NCBI RefSeq assembly: GCF_900188205.1
Contig: NZ_FZOH01000009.1
Location: forward strand, 1-64,000
Direction: 5' to 3'
DNA: 64,000 bases
Origin: Geodermatophilus saharensis
GTDB lineage: Bacteria; Actinomycetota; Actinomycetes; Mycobacteriales; Geodermatophilaceae
Position 1 is the stretch's first letter. Each line of letters opens with the position of its first letter. The notes under the pieces are model-generated. The model was given only the letters and a program-made list of their open reading frames with translations, did no database searches and had not been told where the DNA came from. The position numbers and the translations under genes were made by a program. Positions 16,363-54,831 of this stretch are shown one piece after another.

Positions 16363-17004
16363 TCAGGGCAGCTGCCACACCGTGGTGCGGCGGCTGCCCG
16401 GGCCCTCGGTCTCGGGCACGTCGAGGACGGTGACCGGCTCGAGCCGCTCGTGCGGCAGGTAGGGCCGGCCCGGGTCCCCGACGAGGACGGAGCAGCCGCG
16501 GGCGCGGGCCCGGTCGAGGAAGGGCAGCACCCGCTCGGTCATCACGCGGTCGTAGCAGACGTCCCCGGCCAGGACGACGTCGACGTCCGGGGGCTCGCGG
16601 TGCAGGACGTCGCCGATGACGCTGATGCCGGTGACGCCGTTGAGGACGGCGTTGACCGCCACCGCCGTCCGGGAGAACGGGTCGACGTCGCTGGCCAGCA
16701 CGTGGTGGGCCCCGGCGAGGACGGCGGCGACGGCGACCAGCCCGCTGCCCGACCCGAGGTCGAGGACGCGACGGCCGGCCACCGGGACGGCGCCGTCGAG
16801 CACGGCCCGGGCCAGCGCCTGCCCGCCGGGCCAGGCCGCCGCCCAGAACGGCGGGTCCTCACCGGCGCCACCGGCGGCGTCCTCCATCGCCTCCCACAGG
16901 GCGACGACGTCGTCGGCGACGTGCAGCCGCACCTCCGGGACGAGGGAGGGCCGGCGGACCTGGGTGTGCGCGCGGACGAACGCCGCGGGCACCACCCTGG
17001 TCAC
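16363..17004 (-). CDS. Class I SAM-dependent methyltransferase (ETFB-KMT / Nnt1-like)
   Basis: 213 residues, GTG 17004 with AGGAGGGG upstream. The SAM-binding motif VLDLGSGSGLVAVAAV is at about 80-95, after the characteristic PPFWAAAWPGGQALARAVL. ASDVDPFS is motif II and VVLAGDVCYDRVMTERVLPFL is motif IV. This layout matches lysine methyltransferase-like proteins of the ETFB-KMT/PrmA group, which modify proteins. It is upstream of ethR by 41 bp, but I see no functional link. Confidence 0.85.
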   Translation of the reverse strand: MTRVVPAAFVRAHTQVRRPSLVPEVRLHVADDVVALWEAMEDAAGGAGEDPPFWAAAWPGGQALARAVLDGAVPVAGRRVLDLGSGSGLVAVAAVLAGAHHVLASDVDPFSRTAVAVNAVLNGVTGISVIGDVLHREPPDVDVVLAGDVCYDRVMTERVLPFLDRARARGCSVLVGDPGRPYLPHERLEPVTVLDVPETEGPGSRRTTVWQLP

Positions 17005-17026
17005 GCCGGCCCCTCCTGGTGACGAT

Positions 17027-17084
17027 CTGGAACGGCCTGGTCACCGCCCGGCACGGCCCCGCTGCAGGGTCCCGCGCCGAGCAG
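17027..17084 (+). repeat. Structured intergenic repeat, copy A (disrupted)
   Basis: CTGGAACGGCC (17027) and later CGGCCCCGCTGCAGGGTCCC (about 17053-17072) plus GCGCCGAGC match the family consensus, but a duplicated/inserted stretch of about 20 nt separates the first part, and the 3' half is missing where copy B begins at 17088. It seems to be a nested or partial copy. Confidence 0.55.
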
Positions 17085-17087
17085 GTG

Positions 17088-17157
17088 ACGTGCTGGAACG
17101 GCCCTCCTGCAGGGTCCCACCCTGAGCGTGCGAAGGGTGGGGGACGGGAGGGTCCTG
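17088..17157 (+). repeat. Structured intergenic repeat, copy B
   Basis: Starts GTGCTGGAACGGCC and ends GGGTCCTG directly against the stop codon (17158-17160) of the minus-strand transglycosylase gene. Inner stem CCCACCC/GGGTGGG surrounds the loop TGAGCGTGCGA. Outer stem CCCTCC/GGGAGG. Other copies keep the pairing with different bases (see findings). Confidence 0.75.
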
Positions 17158-18078
17158 TCAGTACCAGCCGGTGGCCTGCGAGTGCGCCCAGGCCTCGCAC
17201 GGGGAGCCGTAGCGGTCCTCGATGTAGATCAGGCCGGCGTCGATCTGCAGGTAGCCGTCGGAGGTCTTGGCGATGCCGGTGCTGGCCCAGGTGGAGTCGA
17301 GGAACTGCGCGATGCCGTACGCGGTGCTGGTGGGGTTCTGCGCGGTGGGGTCCCAGCCGCTCTCCTTGCCCCACAGCTTCTCCAGGCAGGAGAACTGCTC
17401 GGCGCCCACGAGGCTGAGCGCGTAGTCCTTGAAGGACCCGCTCTTGGCCGTGCCCGAGCTCGCGCTGCTGGCGGCCGGCGCCTCGGTGGCCGCGGCGGCC
17501 GGCTGGGCGGCGGCGGCCTGCTCGGCCGCGGCGGCCTCGGCGGCGGCCTGCTCGGCCGCGGCGGCCTGCTCGGCCGCGGCGGCCTCGGCGGCGGCCTGGG
17601 CCTCGGCGGCGGCGCGCGCGGCCTCCTCCTCGGCGGCGACGCGGGCGGCCTCCTCGGCGGCGGCCTGCTCCGCGGCGGCCTGCTCGGCGGCCGCCTGCGC
17701 CTGGACGGCGGCGGCGTCCACCGCGGTGCGCTGGTTGCGCGAGGCGGCGAGGTCCTCCAGGGAGGCGAGGGTGTCGTCCCCGATGGCGCTGGTGGTGGCG
17801 GCGTCCTCGGTCTGCTGCGGGATGCCCAGCGCCTCGGCGACGCCCACCGAGGCGCTCGCGGTGTCGGTGTCGGTGTCGGCGGGCGAGGCGGCGCCGGTGG
17901 TGGTCAGCACGCCGACCAGCAGCGCGCCGGCGGTGGCGGTGCCGAGCAGCAGCGCGGGACGGCGCGAGCGGAGGAAGCCGCCGCGGCGGGCGGGGGCCTC
18001 GTCGACGTCGGCGACCTCGACGGCGGTGGCCTCGACGCTCTCCGGCGTGTCGGGGGCGGTGTGGCGGGTACGGGGCAT
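17158..18078 (-). CDS. Lytic transglycosylase-like cell-wall protein (riboswitch-controlled)
   Basis: 306 residues, ATG 18078. A basic cytoplasmic N-terminus is followed by one membrane/signal segment (about 43-62, RPALLLGTATAGALLVGVL). Then comes a long alanine/glutamate-rich helix (about 110-205) with repeated AAAEQAAAE units, and a C-terminal lysozyme-like domain (about 225-306). The domain has CLEKLWGKESGWDP, with a candidate catalytic Glu, and AYGIAQFLDSTWAST, as in transglycosylase/Rpf-like enzymes. Two cysteines (CLEK, PCEAW) may form a disulfide. It probably cleaves peptidoglycan outside the membrane. A c-di-AMP riboswitch lies in its leader, the usual actinobacterial setting for wall hydrolases. 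Confidence 0.88.
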   Translation of the reverse strand: MPRTRHTAPDTPESVEATAVEVADVDEAPARRGGFLRSRRPALLLGTATAGALLVGVLTTTGAASPADTDTDTASASVGVAEALGIPQQTEDAATTSAIGDDTLASLEDLAASRNQRTAVDAAAVQAQAAAEQAAAEQAAAEEAARVAAEEEAARAAAEAQAAAEAAAAEQAAAAEQAAAEAAAAEQAAAAQPAAAATEAPAASSASSGTAKSGSFKDYALSLVGAEQFSCLEKLWGKESGWDPTAQNPTSTAYGIAQFLDSTWASTGIAKTSDGYLQIDAGLIYIEDRYGSPCEAWAHSQATGWY

Positions 18079-18320
18079 GAGGGTGGGGGCTCCGAGGGAG
18101 AGTGCACGCGGCGGCCCGGGGCACGGGCGCGCGCACGCGGCGCGGTCTACGGGGTCTGGCGGAGTGCGGGTCTCCGGCGGCTCCGGTCGGTGCCGGGCGC
18201 GGCGGGGCAGGGTCGAGCCGGCGTCAGGAGGACGCGAGGGCGCGCTGCGCGCACCGGCGGCTGCACCTGCGGGCCACGGGGGCCCGGAGGCGGGGCATGC
18301 GGGAGACTCCGTTCCTTCCG

Positions 18321-18468
18321 TGAGCCGCCTACCGAGTTAGCTGACGGGTTCGGGCGGGAAGCAGCCCTACGCGCCGGCGAGCGGAGCTCGCCGGGTGCGA
18401 TTCACCCCGGCACTGCGGTGGGTCCCCGGCTCGCGTCCGCGGGGACGGACACGACTCGGCGGCGTCCG
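18321..18468 (-). promoter_or_regulatory. ydaO/yuaA c-di-AMP riboswitch
   Basis: Read on the minus strand, the leader carries the conserved blocks of the ydaO riboswitch in order: GACGCCGCCGAGTC, GCCGGGGACCCACCG, CCGGGGTGAATCGC, GTAGGGCTGCTTCC, CGCCCGAACCCGTCAGCTAA and CTCGGTAGGCGG. A variable GCGAGCTCCGCTCGCC hairpin sits between blocks. This RNA class binds c-di-AMP and usually turns off wall hydrolase or potassium/osmolyte genes. The aptamer ends about 240 nt before the transglycosylase start, a rather long expression platform. Confidence 0.93.
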
Positions 18469-18513
18469 GCCAGGCTCCCCGGACGGGGAAGGACGACCAA
18501 CCGGACGCCCGCC

Positions 18514-18543
18514 ACGGTAGAGGCCGTTACCGGTCCGTGACAA
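18514..18543 (-). promoter_or_regulatory. Probable promoter of the riboswitch transcript
   Basis: On the minus strand TTGTCA (18543-18538) and TACCGT (18519-18514), spaced 18 bp, resemble a housekeeping promoter. Transcription would begin near 18507, about 40 nt before the riboswitch aptamer, giving a leader of about 430 nt. Confidence 0.5.
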
Positions 18544-18587
18544 CACGGGGACCGGAGGGACAGGTGGGACCGCTGGGGTCCGGCCGG

Positions 18588-18619
18588 GGCGGACGCCGAC
18601 CGCCCGGCCGGCGTCCGCC
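18588..18619 (-). terminator. Hairpin after the DivIVA-like gene
   Basis: GGCGGACGCCG (18588-18598) pairs with CGGCGTCCGCC (18609-18619), an 11-bp perfect stem with a 10-nt loop, about 17 bp past the minus-strand stop codon at 18636. There is no T-run. Confidence 0.5.
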
Positions 18620-18635
18620 CTGCTCAGCGGGCCGG

Positions 18636-19586
18636 TCAGGAGGCCGCGGCGACCTCGGGACGGCCGGCGCCGTGCAGCACCGTGAGCTGCGACGCATCGC
18701 CCGGGACGACCGGCTCGCGGTCGTCCGGCGCCCCGGCGGCGGCCTCCGCGGCCTCCCGGCGCTCGGCGAGGACGGGGACGTCGTCGGGGAGCACCCCGGC
18801 GACGACCGCGAGGGCCCGGTCGATCTGCCCGGTCAGCCCGAGCAGCCACTCGCGGGCCTGGTCGCGCTCGTCGCGCAGCGGCGCGAGCTCGGCCTCGGCG
18901 GCCAGCCGGCGCTCGAGCGCCTCGGCGTCGGCCCGGGCGCGCACCTCGGCGGCCTCCCGGTCCAGCCGGGCGCGGACCTCGACGGCCTCCTGGTCGAGCC
19001 GCTCGCGCGCCTCCGCGGCCGCGCGGTCGAGCCGGGCGCGCTCCTCGGCCGCCGCCCGGCCCACCTCCGCGGCCTGGCGGCGGGCCGCCTCCAGCACCGC
19101 CGCGGCCTCGCTGCGGGTCTGCTCGCGCAGCGCGATGACCGCCTCGCGCATCTCGGCGACCCCGCGGAGCCGCGCCTCGGCCTCGGTGCGGGCCTCGGCG
19201 AGCAGCCGCCGGGCCTCCTCCTCGGCCGTGGCGGTCACGGCGGCGGCCTCCTGCTCGGCCCGGGCCACCAGCGCCCTGGCCTCCTCCGGGCCGGGCAGCG
19301 ACTGCCGCTCGCGGACCAGCGCCGCGAGCCGGCGCCGCGCGTTCTGCAACTCGGTCGAGCAGGCGGCGTAGCGGCTGAGCAGGTGGTCGTTCTCCCGCCG
19401 CAGGACCATGACCTCGGTCTCGGCCCAGTCCACGTAGGTGTCCACCTGCGCGCGGTCGTAGCCGCGCACCGCCGTCTTGAACACCGGCCCCGTGCCCAGC
19501 AGGCCGTCGAGCCCGCTCGGCGCCCGTCTCGTGTCGTCGTCCCCGGCCGCTGCGTGCCGCGCGTGCCCGTCCCCCACCTGCGACAT
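18636..19586 (-). CDS. DivIVA-domain coiled-coil protein
   Basis: 316 residues from ATG 19586, with GAGGGGG upstream. After a short polar head, residues about 34-65 (GPVFKTAVRGYDRAQVDTYV, then DWAETEV) match the DivIVA N-terminal membrane/curvature-binding motif. About 70-265 are a continuous coiled coil rich in A, E and R (repeating RLDRAAAEARERLDQEAVE). The tail is acidic and flexible. Actinobacterial relatives organise polar growth, division or cytoskeletal assemblies. It is shorter than the Streptomyces giant Scy proteins. No membrane segment. Confidence 0.85.
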   Translation of the reverse strand: MSQVGDGHARHAAAGDDDTRRAPSGLDGLLGTGPVFKTAVRGYDRAQVDTYVDWAETEVMVLRRENDHLLSRYAACSTELQNARRRLAALVRERQSLPGPEEARALVARAEQEAAAVTATAEEEARRLLAEARTEAEARLRGVAEMREAVIALREQTRSEAAAVLEAARRQAAEVGRAAAEERARLDRAAAEARERLDQEAVEVRARLDREAAEVRARADAEALERRLAAEAELAPLRDERDQAREWLLGLTGQIDRALAVVAGVLPDDVPVLAERREAAEAAAGAPDDREPVVPGDASQLTVLHGAGRPEVAAAS

Positions 19587-35379: not shown

Positions 35380-36543
35380 GTGCACGACACGGAGGCGCTG
35401 CTGGTCGAGCTGGGCCTGCTCTTCCTCGGCCTGGCCGCCCTCGGCCTGCTCGCCCGCCGCCTGGACCTCTCCCCCATCCCCTTCGTCCTCGTGGCCGCCC
35501 TGGCGGTGGGCGAGGGCGGGCTGGCGCCCCTGGGCACCGCCACCCCGTTCCTCGAGGCGGCGGCCGAGATCGGCGTCGTGCTGCTGCTGCTCGCCCTCGG
35601 CCTGGAGTTCTCCCCGGACGAGCTGTTCACCTCGCTGCGCCACCACGGCCGCTCCGGGCTCGTGGACCTGCTGCTCAACGCACCGCCGGGCCTGGTGGCC
35701 GGCCTGCTGCTGGGCCTGCCGTGGCAGGGCGCGCTCGCGCTGGCGGGCATCACCTACATCTCCTCGTCCGGCATCGTGGCGCGGCTGCTGGCCGACCTCG
35801 GCCGGCTGGCCAACCGGGAGACGCCGGCGGTGCTGTCGGTGCTGGTCCTCGAGGACCTGGCGATGGCGCTGGTGCTGCCGCTGCTCGCGGTGGCGCTGGC
35901 CGGCGGTGGTCCGGTGGCGGCCGGCGGCGGGCTGGCGCTGGCCGCCGGCACGGTCGTGCTGGTCCTGGCCGCCGCCCGGCGGCACGGTCACCACCTCGGG
36001 CGGCTGCTCACCTCGCCCGACGACGAGCAGGTCCTGCTGCGCCTGGTCGGGCTGACGCTGCTGGTGGCCGGCGCGGCGCAGGCGCTGGGCGTGTCGGCCG
36101 CGGTCGGGGCGTTCCTCGTCGGGCTTGCGCTGCCCACGCCGTTCGCCGAGCGGGTGCGGCGGATCCTCACCCCGCTGCGCGACCTGTTCGCGGCCACGTT
36201 CTTCGTCGCCTTCGGGCTGGCCACCGATCCCGCCGACATCGTGCCCGTGCTGCCGGCGGCGCTGCTGCTGGCCGCCGTGACCGCGGCGACCAAGGTCGCG
36301 ACCGGCTGGTACGCCGCCGGCCGGGACGGCGTGGGCACGCCGGGACGCTGGCGGGCCGGGACCGCGCTGGTCGCCCGCGGGGAGTTCTCCGTCGTCATCG
36401 CCGGTCTCGCCGTGGCCGCCGGGCTGCCCGAGCTCGGCCCGCTGGCCACCGCGTACGTGCTCGTGCTCGCCGTGGCCGGTCCCCTGCTCGCCCGGCTGCC
36501 GGTGCCGCGCCTCGCGCGCCCGGAGCGCCCGGCGACCGCCTGA
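35380..36543 (+). CDS. KhtU-like cation/proton antiporter (CPA2 family)
   Basis: 387 residues, GTG 35380. About 12 membrane helices. Landmarks of the Kef/CPA2 family: EIGVVLLLLALGLEFSPDEL, GITYISSSGIVARLLADLG, VLEDLAMALVLPLLAV, GAFLVGLALPTPFAERV, LRDLFAATFFVAFGL, and a C-terminal ARGEFSVVIAGLA. It lacks a cytosolic RCK domain, which is supplied by the preceding KhtT-like gene. It probably exports K+ (or another monovalent cation) for H+. A strong hairpin (36564-36592) follows. Confidence 0.9.
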   Translation: MHDTEALLVELGLLFLGLAALGLLARRLDLSPIPFVLVAALAVGEGGLAPLGTATPFLEAAAEIGVVLLLLALGLEFSPDELFTSLRHHGRSGLVDLLLNAPPGLVAGLLLGLPWQGALALAGITYISSSGIVARLLADLGRLANRETPAVLSVLVLEDLAMALVLPLLAVALAGGGPVAAGGGLALAAGTVVLVLAAARRHGHHLGRLLTSPDDEQVLLRLVGLTLLVAGAAQALGVSAAVGAFLVGLALPTPFAERVRRILTPLRDLFAATFFVAFGLATDPADIVPVLPAALLLAAVTAATKVATGWYAAGRDGVGTPGRWRAGTALVARGEFSVVIAGLAVAAGLPELGPLATAYVLVLAVAGPLLARLPVPRLARPERPATA

Positions 36544-36592: not shown

Positions 36593-36606
36593 CCTGTCAC
36601 GTCGAG

Positions 36607-36677
36607 GTGCTGGAACGGCCTCGCTGCAGGGGCCCGCCGCGAGCGTGCGAGTGGCGGGCGGCAGCGGGGTCCTCCTA
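36607..36677 (+). repeat. Structured intergenic repeat, copy C
   Basis: Starts GTGCTGGAACGGCC and ends GGGTCCTCCTA, running into the TAG stop (36675-36677) of the minus-strand SDR gene. Inner stem CCCGCC/GGCGGG with loop containing GAGCGTGCGA. Outer pairing CGCTGC/GCAGCG, where copy B instead has CCCTCC/GGGAGG. Confidence 0.75.
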
Positions 36678-37436
36678 GGCCCTGGGACCGCCCGCGGCGT
36701 ACACGACCTGGCCGGAGACGAAGCCGGCGCCCTCGCTGACGAAGAACGACACCAGGTGCGCGATGTCCTCGGGCTGGCCCACCCGCGCGACCGGGATCTG
36801 CGAGGCCGCGCCCTTGACGAAGTCCTCGAAGGGGATGCCCATGCGCTCGGCGGTCGCCTTGGTCATCTCGGTCTGGATGAAGCCCGGGGCGATGGCGTTG
36901 GCGGTGACGCCGAACTTGCCCAGCTCGATCGCCAGGGTCTTGGTGAAGCCCTGCAGGCCGGCCTTCGCCGCCGAGTAGTTGGCCTGGCCGCGGTTGCCCA
37001 GCGCCGAGGTCGAGGACAGGTTGACCACGCGCCCCCACTTGGCCTCGACCATGTGCTTCTGGCAGGCGCGGGTCATGAGGAACGAGCCCCGCAGGTGCAC
37101 GTTCATCACGACGTCCCAGTCGACCTCGGTCATCTTGAACAGCATGTTGTCGCGGGTGACCCCGGCGTTGTTGACCAGCACGACCGGCGCGCCGAGCTCG
37201 GCGGCGATCCGGTCGACGGCGGCCTGCACCTGCTCGGCGTCGCTGACGTCGGCCCCGACGCCCAGCGCGCGCCCGCCGGCGCCCTCGATCTCCTGCACGG
37301 TGTCCTTGGTGGCGGCCTCGTCGAGGTCGACCACGGCCACGGCGAAGCCGTCGGCGGCCAGCCGCTTGGCGGTGGCCGCGCCGATGCCGCGCGCGGCGCC
37401 GGTCACGATGGCCACGCGGGGGGTTGCCTCGCTCAT
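36675..37436 (-). CDS. fabG: 3-oxoacyl-ACP/acetoacetyl-CoA reductase-type SDR
   Basis: 253 residues from ATG 37436, with GAGAGGAAC upstream. TGAARGIG cofactor motif (about 12-19), NNAGVTRDN, NLSSTSALGNRGQANYSAAK (Ser-Tyr-Lys triad), GFIQTEMT and an ending VSGQVVYAAGGPRA. This is the classical FabG/PhaB group. Being separated from other fatty-acid genes, it could serve fatty-acid synthesis, degradation or polyhydroxybutyrate synthesis. Confidence 0.88.
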   Translation of the reverse strand: MSEATPRVAIVTGAARGIGAATAKRLAADGFAVAVVDLDEAATKDTVQEIEGAGGRALGVGADVSDAEQVQAAVDRIAAELGAPVVLVNNAGVTRDNMLFKMTEVDWDVVMNVHLRGSFLMTRACQKHMVEAKWGRVVNLSSTSALGNRGQANYSAAKAGLQGFTKTLAIELGKFGVTANAIAPGFIQTEMTKATAERMGIPFEDFVKGAASQIPVARVGQPEDIAHLVSFFVSEGAGFVSGQVVYAAGGPRA

Positions 37437-45801: not shown

Positions 45802-47546
45802 GGCTCCGGGGGCGCTTCGACGACGTCGCCGGCGGCACGGCGCGGTCCTTCCCCGGGACCTCCCGGGTGCTGGTCGCCACCACCCCGGCCGACGTCGTCC
45901 CGGTGCTCGCCGAGGTCGACCGCGCCACCGCCGCCGGCTGCTGGGCCTTCGGCTACCTCGCCTACGAGGCCGCGGCCGGGCTCGACCCCGGCCTGACCGT
46001 CGCCGCCCGGCCCGACGGCGACCCGCTGCCGCTGGCCGTCTTCGGGTTGGCCGACCGGCCGCTCGAGGTGCCCGTCGTGACCCCCGCCGGCGGCCGCGGG
46101 TACGCGGTCGGCCCGTGGGCCCGGGGCTGGACCGAGGCCGGTCACCGCGCCGCCGTCGAGGCGGTGCGCGAGCACATCGCCGCCGGCGACACCTACCAGC
46201 TCAACCTGACCGTGCGGATGCGCGCGCCGGTGTCCGGCGACCTGGAGCGGCTCTACGCCGACCTCGCCTGCGCCCAGGCCGGGTCGCACGCCGCCCTCCT
46301 CGACCTCGGCCGGCACGCCGTCGTCTCCGCCAGCCCGGAGCTGTTCTTCCGCTGGTCCGGCGGCGAGCTGCTGACCCGGCCGATGAAGGGGACCGCGCGC
46401 CGCGGCGCCACGCCCGGCGAGGACGCCGCGGCCCGCGCGCGGCTGCTGGCCAGCGACAAGGAGCGCGCCGAGAACCTGATGATCGTGGACCTGCTGCGCA
46501 ACGACCTGGGCCGGGTGGCGCAGGTCGGCAGCGTCGCCGTCCCCGCGCTGTTCACCGCCGAGCGGTACGGGACGGTGTGGCAGCTGACCTCCGACGTCAC
46601 CGCGCGCACCGGCCCGGACACCGGGCTGGTCGACGTCCTCCGGGCGCTGTTCCCCTCCGGCTCGGTCACCGGCGCGCCCAAGCGGCGGTCGATGGAGCTC
46701 ATCGCCGCGCTCGAGGACGGCCCGCGCGGGGTCTACTGCGGCGCGATCGGCTGGGTCGCCCCGCCGGGAGCCGGCGACCGGGCGGTGTTCAGCGTCGCCA
46801 TCCGGACGGTGACCGTGGACCGGGCGACCGGCACCGCCGAGTACGGCACCGGCGGCGGCATCACGTGGTCCTCCGACCCCGCGGCCGAGCACGCGGAGCT
46901 GCTGGCCAAGGCCGCGATCCTCGAGCCGGGCCCCGGCCCGTTCGGGCTGCTGGAGACGATGGCGGCCGAGCCCGACGGCCGGGTCCGCGACCTCGACCGG
47001 CACCTGGCGCGGCTGGCCGCCTCCGCCGCCGAGCTCGGCTTCCCCCTCCGCGAGGCCGAGGCCCGGCGGCGGCTGGCGGCCGCCGTCCCGCCGGGCGCGC
47101 CCGCGCGGCTGCGCCTGGTGCTGCACCGCGACGGGCGGCTCGACGTCGAGGCGCACCCGCTGCCGCCGCCGGCAGACGGGCCGGTGCGGCTGGCGGTCGA
47201 CGACGAGCCGGTCGACCCGGCGTCGGTCTGGCTGCGGCACAAGACCACCCGCCGCGACGTCTACACCGCGGCCGCCGCCCGCCACCCGGACGCCGACGAC
47301 GTGGTCCTCGTCAACACCGCCGGCTCCGTCACCGAGACCACGATCGCCTCCCTCGCCGTCCGGCTCGGCGGCGCGTGGTGGACCCCGCCGCTGTCGGCGG
47401 GCTGCCTCCCCGGCGTGGCGCGCGGCCGCCTGGTGGAGGAGGGCCGGCTGCGCGAGCGCGACCTCACCCCGGACGACCTGCGCCGCGCCCAGGCGCTCGC
47501 CGTCGTCAGCTCCCTGCGCGGCTGGCGCCCCGCCGTCCTGGTGTAG
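45798..47546 (+). CDS. pabB: Aminodeoxychorismate synthase component I fused to aminodeoxychorismate lyase (PabB-PabC)
   Basis: 582 residues, GTG 45798 inside the PAC2 stop. The chorismate-binding domain (about 60-375) has AGDTYQLNLTVRM, RPMKGTARRG, ENLMIVDLLRNDLGRV, GSVTGAPKRRSMELIA, GTGGGITWSSDP. The C-terminal PLP lyase domain (about 380-582) has FGLLETMAA, RLRLVLHRDGRLD, KTTRRDVYTAA (PLP lysine), TETTIASLAVRL. It makes p-aminobenzoate for folate in one chain, but the glutaminase (PabA) must come from elsewhere. An overlapping PAC2 gene upstream suggests co-transcription. Confidence 0.93.
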   Translation: MRLRGRFDDVAGGTARSFPGTSRVLVATTPADVVPVLAEVDRATAAGCWAFGYLAYEAAAGLDPGLTVAARPDGDPLPLAVFGLADRPLEVPVVTPAGGRGYAVGPWARGWTEAGHRAAVEAVREHIAAGDTYQLNLTVRMRAPVSGDLERLYADLACAQAGSHAALLDLGRHAVVSASPELFFRWSGGELLTRPMKGTARRGATPGEDAAARARLLASDKERAENLMIVDLLRNDLGRVAQVGSVAVPALFTAERYGTVWQLTSDVTARTGPDTGLVDVLRALFPSGSVTGAPKRRSMELIAALEDGPRGVYCGAIGWVAPPGAGDRAVFSVAIRTVTVDRATGTAEYGTGGGITWSSDPAAEHAELLAKAAILEPGPGPFGLLETMAAEPDGRVRDLDRHLARLAASAAELGFPLREAEARRRLAAAVPPGAPARLRLVLHRDGRLDVEAHPLPPPADGPVRLAVDDEPVDPASVWLRHKTTRRDVYTAAAARHPDADDVVLVNTAGSVTETTIASLAVRLGGAWWTPPLSAGCLPGVARGRLVEEGRLRERDLTPDDLRRAQALAVVSSLRGWRPAVLV

Positions 47547-47557
47547 AGCCGGCTGTC

Positions 47558-47630
47558 GTGCTGGGACGGCCCCTCTGCACGGGCCCGCGCCGAGCGGAGC
47601 GAGGCGTGGGGGGGCGGCGGGGTCCTCCTT
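47558..47630 (+). repeat. Structured intergenic repeat, copy D
   Basis: Starts GTGCTGGGACGGCC and ends GGGTCCTCCTT, 1 bp from the stop codon of minus-strand purU. Inner stem GCGCC/GGCGT with loop GAGCGGAGCGA. Outer pairing is weaker than in copies B, C and E. Confidence 0.7.
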
Positions 47631-47631
47631 C

Positions 47632-48516
47632 TCAGGCGAAGACGATCGTCCGGTCGCCCTCGACGATCACGCGGTCCTCCACGTGCCAGGTCACCGCCTG
47701 CGCGAGCACCTGCCGCTCGACGTAGCGGCCCACCCGGCGCATGTCCTCGACGGTGGCGCGGTGGTCGACCCGGGCCACCTCCTGCTCGATGATCGGGCCG
47801 GCGTCGAGCTCGGGGGTCACGTAGTGCGCCGTCGCGCCGATCAGCTTCACCCCGCGGTCGTGGGCGGCCTGGTAGGGGTTGGCGCCGACGAACGCCGGCA
47901 GGAAGCTGTGGTGGATGTTGATCAGCCGCTCGGGGAACCGGCTGCAGAAGTCGGCCGACACGATCTGCATGTACCGGGCGAGCACCACCAGGTCGACGTC
48001 GCCGACGAGCTCCAGCGCCCGGGCCTCGGCCTGCGCCTTGGTCTCCGGCGTCACCGGCACGTGGTGGAAGGGCACCCCGGCCGCGGCCGCCACCGGCTCC
48101 AGGTCGGGGTGGTTGGAGACGACGGCGACGATGTCGGCGTGCAGGTCACCGGCGCGCACCCGGTAGAGCAGCTCCTGCAGCACGTGGTCGGTCCTCGACA
48201 CGAAGACCGCCACCCGCGGCCGGTACGAGGCCTCGGTGAGCCGCCAGGTGAGCTGCCACTGCTGGGCCAGGAGCTCCAGCGCCCCCTCGAGCTGGGTGCG
48301 CCGCGCCGACAGGCCGGGCAGCACGAACTCCAGCCGCAGTGTGAACACCCCGCCGGTCGGGTCCGAGGAGTGCTGCTGCGACTCGGTGATGTTCGCCCCG
48401 ACGTCGGCGAGCAGCCGGGAGAGCACCGCGACGATGCCCGGGCGGTCGGGGCAGCGCACCACCAGCCGACCGGTGTCGGCGGTGTTCACGGCAGAGGCGA
48501 CGGGCGCGGCGGACAC
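47632..48516 (-). CDS. purU: Formyltetrahydrofolate deformylase
   Basis: 294 residues, GTG 48516. An ACT domain (about 17-95; RCPDRPGIVAVLSRLLADVG, SQQHSSD) precedes the formyltransferase-like hydrolase domain: VAVFVSRTDHVLQELLYR, IVAVVSNHPDL, LVVLARYMQIVS, INIHHSFLPAFVGANPY (catalytic His) and LIGATAHYVTPELDAGPIIEQ. It releases formate from 10-formyl-THF to balance one-carbon pools. It follows repeat copy D, convergent with pabBC. Confidence 0.96.
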   Translation of the reverse strand: MSAAPVASAVNTADTGRLVVRCPDRPGIVAVLSRLLADVGANITESQQHSSDPTGGVFTLRLEFVLPGLSARRTQLEGALELLAQQWQLTWRLTEASYRPRVAVFVSRTDHVLQELLYRVRAGDLHADIVAVVSNHPDLEPVAAAAGVPFHHVPVTPETKAQAEARALELVGDVDLVVLARYMQIVSADFCSRFPERLINIHHSFLPAFVGANPYQAAHDRGVKLIGATAHYVTPELDAGPIIEQEVARVDHRATVEDMRRVGRYVERQVLAQAVTWHVEDRVIVEGDRTIVFA

Positions 48517-53723: not shown

Positions 53724-53757
53724 CCGGGACCCGGTTCAGGCGGACGGCAAGCGGCAC

Positions 53758-53823
53758 TGGAAGGACCCGCCTGCCCCCCACCGCTCACAGGCTCACGGCG
53801 GGCCCCTGCAGGCGGGCCGCCTA
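53758..53823 (-). repeat. Structured intergenic repeat, copy E (inverted orientation)
   Basis: On the minus strand it follows the topoisomerase stop directly: TAG-GCGGCCCGCCTGCAGGG and ends GGGTCCTTCC. Outer stem CCCGCCTGC/GCAGGCGGG is a perfect 9-bp pair. Inner stem CCGCC-type/GGTGGGG with a loop containing GAGCCTGTGAG. Relative to its neighbouring stop codon it lies in the opposite orientation to copies B, C and D. Confidence 0.75.
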
Positions 53824-54831
53824 AGCGGACAACAAGCGGCACACTGCTTGCTCGAGCACCTTCTGGGCCTCGCGGTCGTCGTCGGTCTGCGTCAGCTCAC
53901 CGAGCGCGTCGGCGACGGTCTCGCCGTGCTCGTACCGGTCGACCACCCGCGGGTCGACGTAGCTGGCCTTGCAGACCGCGGGGGTGTTGCCCAGCTGCTC
54001 CGACACCCGCACGTAGGCGTCCCGGATGGTCTTGTCCCGCTCGGTCTTGGTCCTGGGGAAGGGCCGCTCGGCCAGCGCGGCGGCCATCATCACCGTGGCG
54101 TTCCACGTCCGGAAGTCCTTGGCGGTGATCTCCGCGCCGCTGACCTCCTTGAGGTAGGCGTTGATCTCGTCGCTGGTGACGTCGCGCCAGCTGCCGTCCT
54201 CCAGCTGGTAGGCCAGCAGCTCCTCCCCCGCGTCGTCGGGGCGTTCGAGCAGCTGCCGGACGACGGTCGCCGTCGGCCGGTCGGTGATCTCCACCTCGCG
54301 CTCGATGCTTCCCTTGGCGGTGTACCGGAAGTAGGTGCGCTCGCCGCGGACCGTGACGTGCTCCCGGCGCAGCGTGGCCAGGCCGTAGGTGCCGTTCTCC
54401 TCGGCGTACTCCTCGCTGCCGATCCGGAAGGTGCCCAGGTCCAGCAGCCGCAGCGCGCAGGCGAGCACCCGCTCGCGGTTGGGCCCGCGGGTCCGCAGCG
54501 CCGCGGCGACGCGGTCGCGGACGTCGGGCAGCTCGGAGGCGATCGCCAGGACCCGCTCGTGCTTCTCCGCGTCGCGCCGGGCCCGCCAGGCGTCGTGGTA
54601 GCGGTACTGCCGCCGTCCCGCGGCGTCGAGGCCGGTGGCCTGGATGTGACCGTTGGGCCACGGGCAGATCCAGACGTCCTTCCACGCCGGGGGGATGGCG
54701 ATGCCCTTGATCCGGTCGAGCCGCTCGGGGTCGCGGATGAGCGCGCCGGTCTCGTCGCGGTAGGCGAAGCCGCGCCCGGCGCGGCGCCGGGTCCAGCCGG
54801 GGCCGTGCACGTTGCTGCGCCGCAGTCTCAC
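53821..54831 (-). CDS. DNA topoisomerase IB (poxvirus/bacterial type)
   Basis: 336 residues from GTG 54831. The small bacterial topoisomerase IB: GFAYRDETGALI, IKGIAIPPAWKDVWICPWPN, GHIQATGLDAAGRRQYRYHD, RIGSEEYAEENGTYGLATL (catalytic Arg region), GSIEREVEITD, ITAKDFRTWNATVM (Lys/Arg-His region), and PAVCKASYVDPRVV (active-site Tyr). It relaxes supercoils by nicking one strand. It is convergent with the STAS gene. Confidence 0.95.
   Translation of the reverse strand: MRLRRSNVHGPGWTRRRAGRGFAYRDETGALIRDPERLDRIKGIAIPPAWKDVWICPWPNGHIQATGLDAAGRRQYRYHDAWRARRDAEKHERVLAIASELPDVRDRVAAALRTRGPNRERVLACALRLLDLGTFRIGSEEYAEENGTYGLATLRREHVTVRGERTYFRYTAKGSIEREVEITDRPTATVVRQLLERPDDAGEELLAYQLEDGSWRDVTSDEINAYLKEVSGAEITAKDFRTWNATVMMAAALAERPFPRTKTERDKTIRDAYVRVSEQLGNTPAVCKASYVDPRVVDRYEHGETVADALGELTQTDDDREAQKVLEQAVCRLLSA

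Follow-up and report, generated by a model that had tools for sequence, protein, structure and literature searches.

An element of about 80 nt in Geodermatophilus saharensis and its relatives is a dispersed, non-coding, REP-like hairpin repeat, and on balance we favour, as an explanation of the whole, a new family that is REP-like, probably mobile and inclined towards stop codons. Read along the strand that folds, the element opens with an unpaired 5' tail, GTGACGTGCTG, and continues into an outer stem made of GGAACGGCC plus a variable arm on one side and a variable arm plus GGTCCTTC on the other. Its interior consists of a purine-rich internal loop (AGGG/GG), then an inner stem and the loop GAGC..GCGA, within which tandem G.A pairs could form on the folded strand. 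The copies in the window, that is, the whole 64,000-nt stretch of DNA that was analysed, and the gene beside one of them are as follows.

17019-17084, plus strand: remnants directly 5' of a full copy, consisting of a tail at 17019-17037 and a left half unit cut off 2 nt after GAGC; the same geometry occurs in 47 of 49 half-unit joins.
17082-17161, plus strand: full element that shares bases, at its GGTCCT end, with the stop codon of gene 17158-18078 (minus strand); the next gene, 16363-16995, is also on the minus strand, and the setting is co-directional.
17158-18078, minus strand: gene abutted by the copy at 17082-17161, with no Pfam match at E 0.001.
36599-36678, plus strand: full element in a convergent slot between 35380-36543 (plus strand, Na_H_Exchanger) and 36675-37436 (minus strand, short-chain dehydrogenase), at the TAG of the latter.
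47550-47631, plus strand: full element in a convergent slot between 45867-47546 (plus strand, Chorismate_bind and Aminotran_4) and 47632-48516 (minus strand, Formyl_trans_N and ACT).
53757-53836, minus strand: full element with a degenerate tail; its 5' part holds the stop codon of gene 53821-54810 (minus strand, topoisomerase IB).

Reading the sequence confirmed the copies that a first-pass annotation of this DNA had placed at 17088, 36607, 47558 and, inverted, 53758, and the 'broken' copy that it placed at 17027 proved to be a tail and a left half unit ending at GAGC before the copy at 17082-17161. The four full copies score 70-89 bits against the family covariance model, which was built with them. 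At the gathering score, the only Rfam match in the window is a c-di-AMP riboswitch away from the repeat, and the repeat itself has none (the best sub-threshold values at 17000-17200 are E 0.68-0.69), so a known RNA family was rejected as its identity. The riboswitch (ydaO/yuaA; 18310-18471, minus strand, 55.9 bits) lies upstream of gene 17158-18078.

Covariation confirms a conserved hairpin, and it is strong both in copies chosen by BLAST and in copies chosen by their tail. Alignment A1 comprises 33 full copies from the own genome, chosen by BLAST with the 17088 copy among the places fetched by then; 95.5% of its cells are paired and 11 of the 23 pairs show a double-sided change, and the paired arm changes described in the first-pass annotation are thus real. 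Double-changed cells number 70 in A1 against 19.7 +/- 5.2 in shuffles, the covariation score is 0.321 against 0.151, and 0 of 500 shuffles reach any of the five covariation measures. Alignment A3 was chosen by the unpaired tail alone, with no selection on structure: 80 listed loci gave 90 tails, 86 after removal of 4 too near a locus end, and 63 single elements after removal of 23 more (14 tandem or half, 7 without a recognisable right end and 2 with N), before four rearranged rows (L183, L186, L196 and L198) were also left out to give 59 sequences. Here, 93.1% of cells are paired, double-changed cells number 130 against 43.6 +/- 5.6, the score is 0.294 against 0.128, and none of 500 shuffles matches the observed values on these three measures; the weaker measures are equalled by 24 of 500 shuffles (pairs with a double change) and 8 of 500 (pair types). 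When the partners are displaced by 1-3 columns, pairing falls to 50-61% in A1 and A3 alike. The earlier proposal of a conserved RNA or DNA hairpin is therefore borne out as far as the hairpin goes, and a lack of significant covariation, which had been named beforehand as an outcome that would speak against it, did not occur.

The family is large in its own genome and bounded in its taxonomic range. The covariance model, of 80 positions, finds at least 148 matches on 15 of the 20 contigs, a few of them partial and nearly all of those listed full-length; BLAST of the genome with the 17088 copy finds 49 places. Stretches from relatives hold 26 model matches in 390.5 kb and, in a second set, 28 in 400 kb, and the absence of further copies from related genomes, another outcome listed in advance as adverse, was thus not encountered. 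The covariance-model scan of family genomes proposed in the first-pass annotation was run with stricter filters and a cut-off of E 1e-4, and 34 of 61 genomes match: 26 of 26 in the genus and 8 of 11 in the rest of the family, with 0 of 24 among other genomes of the same order. A 20-base piece of the tail occurs in at least 115 stretches across species genomes; among the 80 listed, 78 belong to Geodermatophilaceae (Geodermatophilus, Blastococcus, Modestobacter and one further member), and the remaining two are single matches in unrelated MAGs, without the hairpin. One stretch of Modestobacter excelsi (L184:2217-2308) carries the tail four times, exactly and at 24-nt spacing, with a hairpin after the last. 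A literature search, conducted mostly outside subscription papers, returned no report of this repeat in Geodermatophilaceae.

Placement relative to genes was determined for 79 own-genome copies with our own gene caller (17 training ORFs), so that starts and some orientations are approximate. These 79, which also served the folding tests, come from 82 model matches in 68 own-genome sources after three partial array units were left out, and are mostly better-scoring copies, not a random draw from the at least 148. Abutment concerns one side of the element and has an orientation: a stop codon adjoins the GGTCCTTC end, and distances on the other side are scattered. Where an opposite-strand gene lies on the GGTCCTTC side (71 copies), its stop codon falls at -2 to +3 nt in 64, whereas the distance from the tail side to a gene ranges from -14 to 722 nt. 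The settings are co-directional (minus/minus) for 43 copies, in which the GGTCCTTC end faces the stop of the upstream gene, convergent for 28, plus/plus for 6 and minus/plus for 1, and a single copy overlaps a called gene; random placement inside genes, the third adverse outcome foreseen, did not appear. Two statements on placement in the first-pass annotation survive in part. That every copy abuts a stop codon holds for the GGTCCTTC end in its preferred orientation, with the 53758 copy as an exception whose plus-strand neighbour on that side has its stop codon 91 nt away, and that copies usually lie between convergent genes is true of three of the four full window copies but not beyond the window, where co-directional settings outnumber convergent ones. 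The idea that the element supplies the stop codon was rejected: TAG ends 16 of 67 abutted genes compared with 39 of 286 others, a difference that is not significant (Fisher p 0.059).

A same-strand gene lies on the GGTCCTTC side of 7 copies, and in 5 of these a TANNNT immediately follows the element, 6-7 nt ahead of the predicted start; in a sixth (L056), TANNNT is present and the predicted start lies further on. In these six (L007, L041, L055, L056, L111 and L112), the adjoining TANNNT is a possible -10 element of a leaderless gene. Two further copies (L316:5509-5572 and L330:11561-11638) seem to be placed at a gene start, not at a gene end, and the matching stretch of G024 appears to encode the N-terminus.

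The two strands of the element are not equivalent. The tail-first strand folds better than its complement in 78 of the 79 own copies (mean -41.7 against -35.0 kcal/mol) and in 61 of 63 tail-selected copies, and this better-folding strand is antisense to the abutted gene. A single pair of the inner stem, in most copies G-U, G-C or A-U and in none A.C, accounts for most of the G.U excess and for a large part of the bias; once it is left out, the G.U to A.C ratio is 26:13 in A1 and 44:34 in A3. The folding strand bears directly on the idea, also raised in the first-pass annotation, of a 3'-UTR structure of the abutted gene, an mRNA-sense stabiliser or terminator which for that reason begins right after the stop codon. 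A nearly fixed, oriented distance from the stop codon is what it predicts, and even the mRNA-sense strand exceeds random 67-mers in stability (about -30 kcal/mol on average). But that strand is the poorer folder in all copies save one, its main wobble becomes A.C, and the element is missing at the orthologous genes of sister species; we regard this reading as improbable.

A role as transcription terminator, or as a block on antisense transcription, would act along the folded strand, with recombination and selection as the means of spread; we rate it as unlikely for the primary nature of the repeat. On this explanation, RNA polymerase heading antisense toward the abutted gene halts at the hairpin before reaching the coding region, and a transcript made in that direction would indeed carry the sequence of the folded strand; the scarcity of minus/plus placements is in keeping with it. 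The best evidence for a terminator-like role is the convergent slot of L160, where hairpins as stable as the 5th percentile of random 70-mers, or more so, are present in 13 of 17 other sequences; one of these, L161, holds a family member in the opposite orientation, and the others look unrelated to the repeat. Another palindrome, of the CATAGGAGGC...GCCTCCTATG type with stop codons in both arms, occupies this slot in L157, L165 and L168. At the 17.1-kb site, too, several species with another left neighbour carry unrelated hairpins, as judged by eye. Against termination stand the right ends, which lack TTTT in all 79 own and all 63 tail-selected copies, so that of the marks of an intrinsic terminator the element has the stable hairpin and not the T-run after the stem; 0 terminator-like sites were found at 16900-18700 of the window. 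Moreover, in the 43 co-directional copies the tail-side gene runs the other way, so that ordinary transcription does not cross the hairpin in the direction in which it folds, and the empty co-directional sites L129-L131 have no strong fold in its place (-15.8, -18.4 and -11.1 kcal/mol against a random 45-mer mean of -17.2). Neither the conservation of an unpaired tail nor the exact stop-codon distance is explained by termination. The bidirectional form suggested in the first-pass annotation is the weaker for the missing TTTT and for a strand that folds better, and it has no need of a fixed end or an orientation; the hairpins of the L160 slot keep it conceivable.

Comparison of sister species, for which 14 of 26 matches from one set of relatives and 21 of 28 from the other were used, shows the element present at some sites and absent from their counterparts. 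The 17.1-kb site has a model match at E 0.1 in 14 of 26 genus loci; it is filled in L133 and empty in L129, L130 and L131 despite like neighbour sequence. A site that is 92-93% identical between G017 and G009 has the element in G017 and not in G009, and another, with flanks 92-96% identical, has one copy in G015, the same copy cut short by a second in G024 and none visible in G008. Yet another site has the element in common to G015 and G024, and L316 and L320 hold a copy at the same site in sister species, as vertical inheritance would give. At filled sites, the spacer beside the stop is replaced instead of cleanly interrupted, and no target-site duplication was seen by eye in the sites compared; gene conversion or recombination between gene ends may for these reasons also account for such differences. 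At about 16387 of L318 (G024), an insertion-sequence-like end, GAGGGTGTTGGGTAAC, sits at the junction of element and stop codon and is absent from the matching G015 site.

Elements also occur in arrays, in which 49 truncated left half units (loci L257-L291 included) are followed by another tail and, with two exceptions, end 2-3 nt after the loop GAGC. The arm of the half unit is the same as that of the next unit in 14 of the 49, differs at 1-2 positions in 9 and at 3 or more of 9 positions in 26. We read these arrays as serial addition of copies with loss of the old right half and some slippage: identical arms are what slippage would give, and the 26 divergent arms make simple slippage insufficient. 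That tandem-repeat slippage and drift of a GC-rich hairpin, with neither mobility nor function, should explain the family as a whole is scarcely credible. It could draw on those identical arms and on the one locus seen with 63-nt repeats, but the dispersal of copies over 15 contigs and three named genera with one conserved tail, together with the divergent arms, largely refutes it. A subfamily with outer arm CCCCGTCC and inner stem AGAGGCTCG...GTGAGGAGG forms nested, multi-copy stacks (L312, L317, L172, L175, L166 and L147), and comparison of L166 with L173 reveals one subfamily copy inverted within the stem of an older element. Tail-only remnants by stop codons look like hairpin deletions; in L292, L293, L306 and L308, near position 2001, the tail is perfect or nearly so and the hairpin is gone or reduced, yet a stop codon still follows within a few nt. 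The possibility that tails mark the ends of a longer, gene-carrying element was rejected, because no gene-carrying version was seen at the tail sites fetched, 17 of which lacked their own model match and 3 of which had one; some have the hairpin deleted or shortened, others are full or partial copies and about four look like chance matches.

Among the three suggestions of the first-pass annotation, a REP-like mobile element fits best. From the distribution of the copies and the sister-species differences we infer mobility. The element would be mobile but non-autonomous and would spread by transposition, with its hairpin recognised on a single DNA strand, presumably in a single-stranded intermediate and by a putative enzyme. 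Its preferred landing place would be next to TGA or TAG (TCA or CTA on the folded strand), which in practice means the stop codon of an opposite-strand gene. Older copies would serve as targets too, joined by a new one at their loop or end and left as truncated half units; in addition, the element may plausibly act secondarily as a gene-end hairpin or terminator.

As to what might move it, the usual candidates were not encountered in the genomes searched. A RAYT/Y1 transposase was rejected because PF01797 matches in none of 96 family genomes at E 0.001 and not in the own genome, while 5 of 14 controls match. Reverse-transcriptase-driven copying was rejected as well: the PF00078 cut-off is passed by 20 of 38 family genomes and not by the own genome, and the enzyme therefore does not look required. 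The attC sites of integrons are strand-specific hairpins after a stop codon, and their recombination is described as using the bottom strand of the palindromic site, so that an integron-like attC relic, used by a tyrosine recombinase, would match the repeat in position and strand. It is nevertheless a very remote prospect and largely refuted, as none of the 38 family genomes has an integron integrase over the TIGR02249 cut-off (all 38, and all 14 controls, have only weaker matches); the attC core is not apparent, no cassettes were seen and the copies are dispersed. With the mobile reading preferred, we tentatively suggest, as a bolder and rather doubtful extension, that a system other than RAYT and integron integrases moves these hairpins, recognising one folded strand and targeting stop codons as well as older copies of the element, at their loop or end.

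Repeats of the REP type shape the ends of genes, and some of them have no known dedicated transposase. An actinobacterial family with a large, structurally well-defined, stop-codon-abutting repeat, and with the usual transposase lacking in the genomes searched, opens two questions to testing: by what means such orphan repeats move, and whether the hairpins at gene ends of GC-rich genomes represent mobile DNA or evolved terminators. The elements also matter for annotation, since they can supply stop codons and mimic terminators. Were a non-RAYT, non-integron mover to be true, it would represent a further way to spread single-strand hairpins through bacterial genomes.

Several known systems resemble the repeat. 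The TRIT of Mycobacterium is a repeated terminator-like hairpin in an actinobacterium, a description that the repeat shares. MIRUs are likewise actinobacterial short repeats, apparently mobile and inserting at gene edges; however, they are described as inserting at start codons, with an ORF coupled to the gene there (PMC12548453), whereas the repeat follows stop codons and is defined by its hairpin. The likeness to REP elements of the GTAG and CGTC types goes further. According to PMC3733652, these are high-copy intergenic hairpins with an unpaired tag by the stem and G.T pairs in the stems, mostly 3' of genes near ORF ends; in the two species diagrammed there, fewer than 20 bp separate most convergent REPs from an ORF 3' end, and a TAG stop is often provided by the terminus of a GTAG REP. 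The repeat, too, consists of high-copy imperfect palindromes in intergenic space near ORF 3' ends. It differs in size and architecture, with about 80 nt and two stems against 20-40 bp for REPs and 8-9 bp for the stems of CGTC REPs (PMC3733652), and in having one end fixed at the stop codon. It also has no constant tag: GTAG lies within the first 21 nt of 1 of 79 copies, and the right end carries CGTC in 27 of the 79 own copies and in 4 of the 63 selected by their tail. Y1_Tnp is missing from all 96 family genomes, although a RAYT is expected for the GTAG type; for CGTC REPs, PMC3733652 gives no dedicated transposase as known, and the string 'actinobacteri' occurs in that text 0 times. REP elements are the closest known kind, and we file the repeat as REP-like, not as a member of a named REP family.
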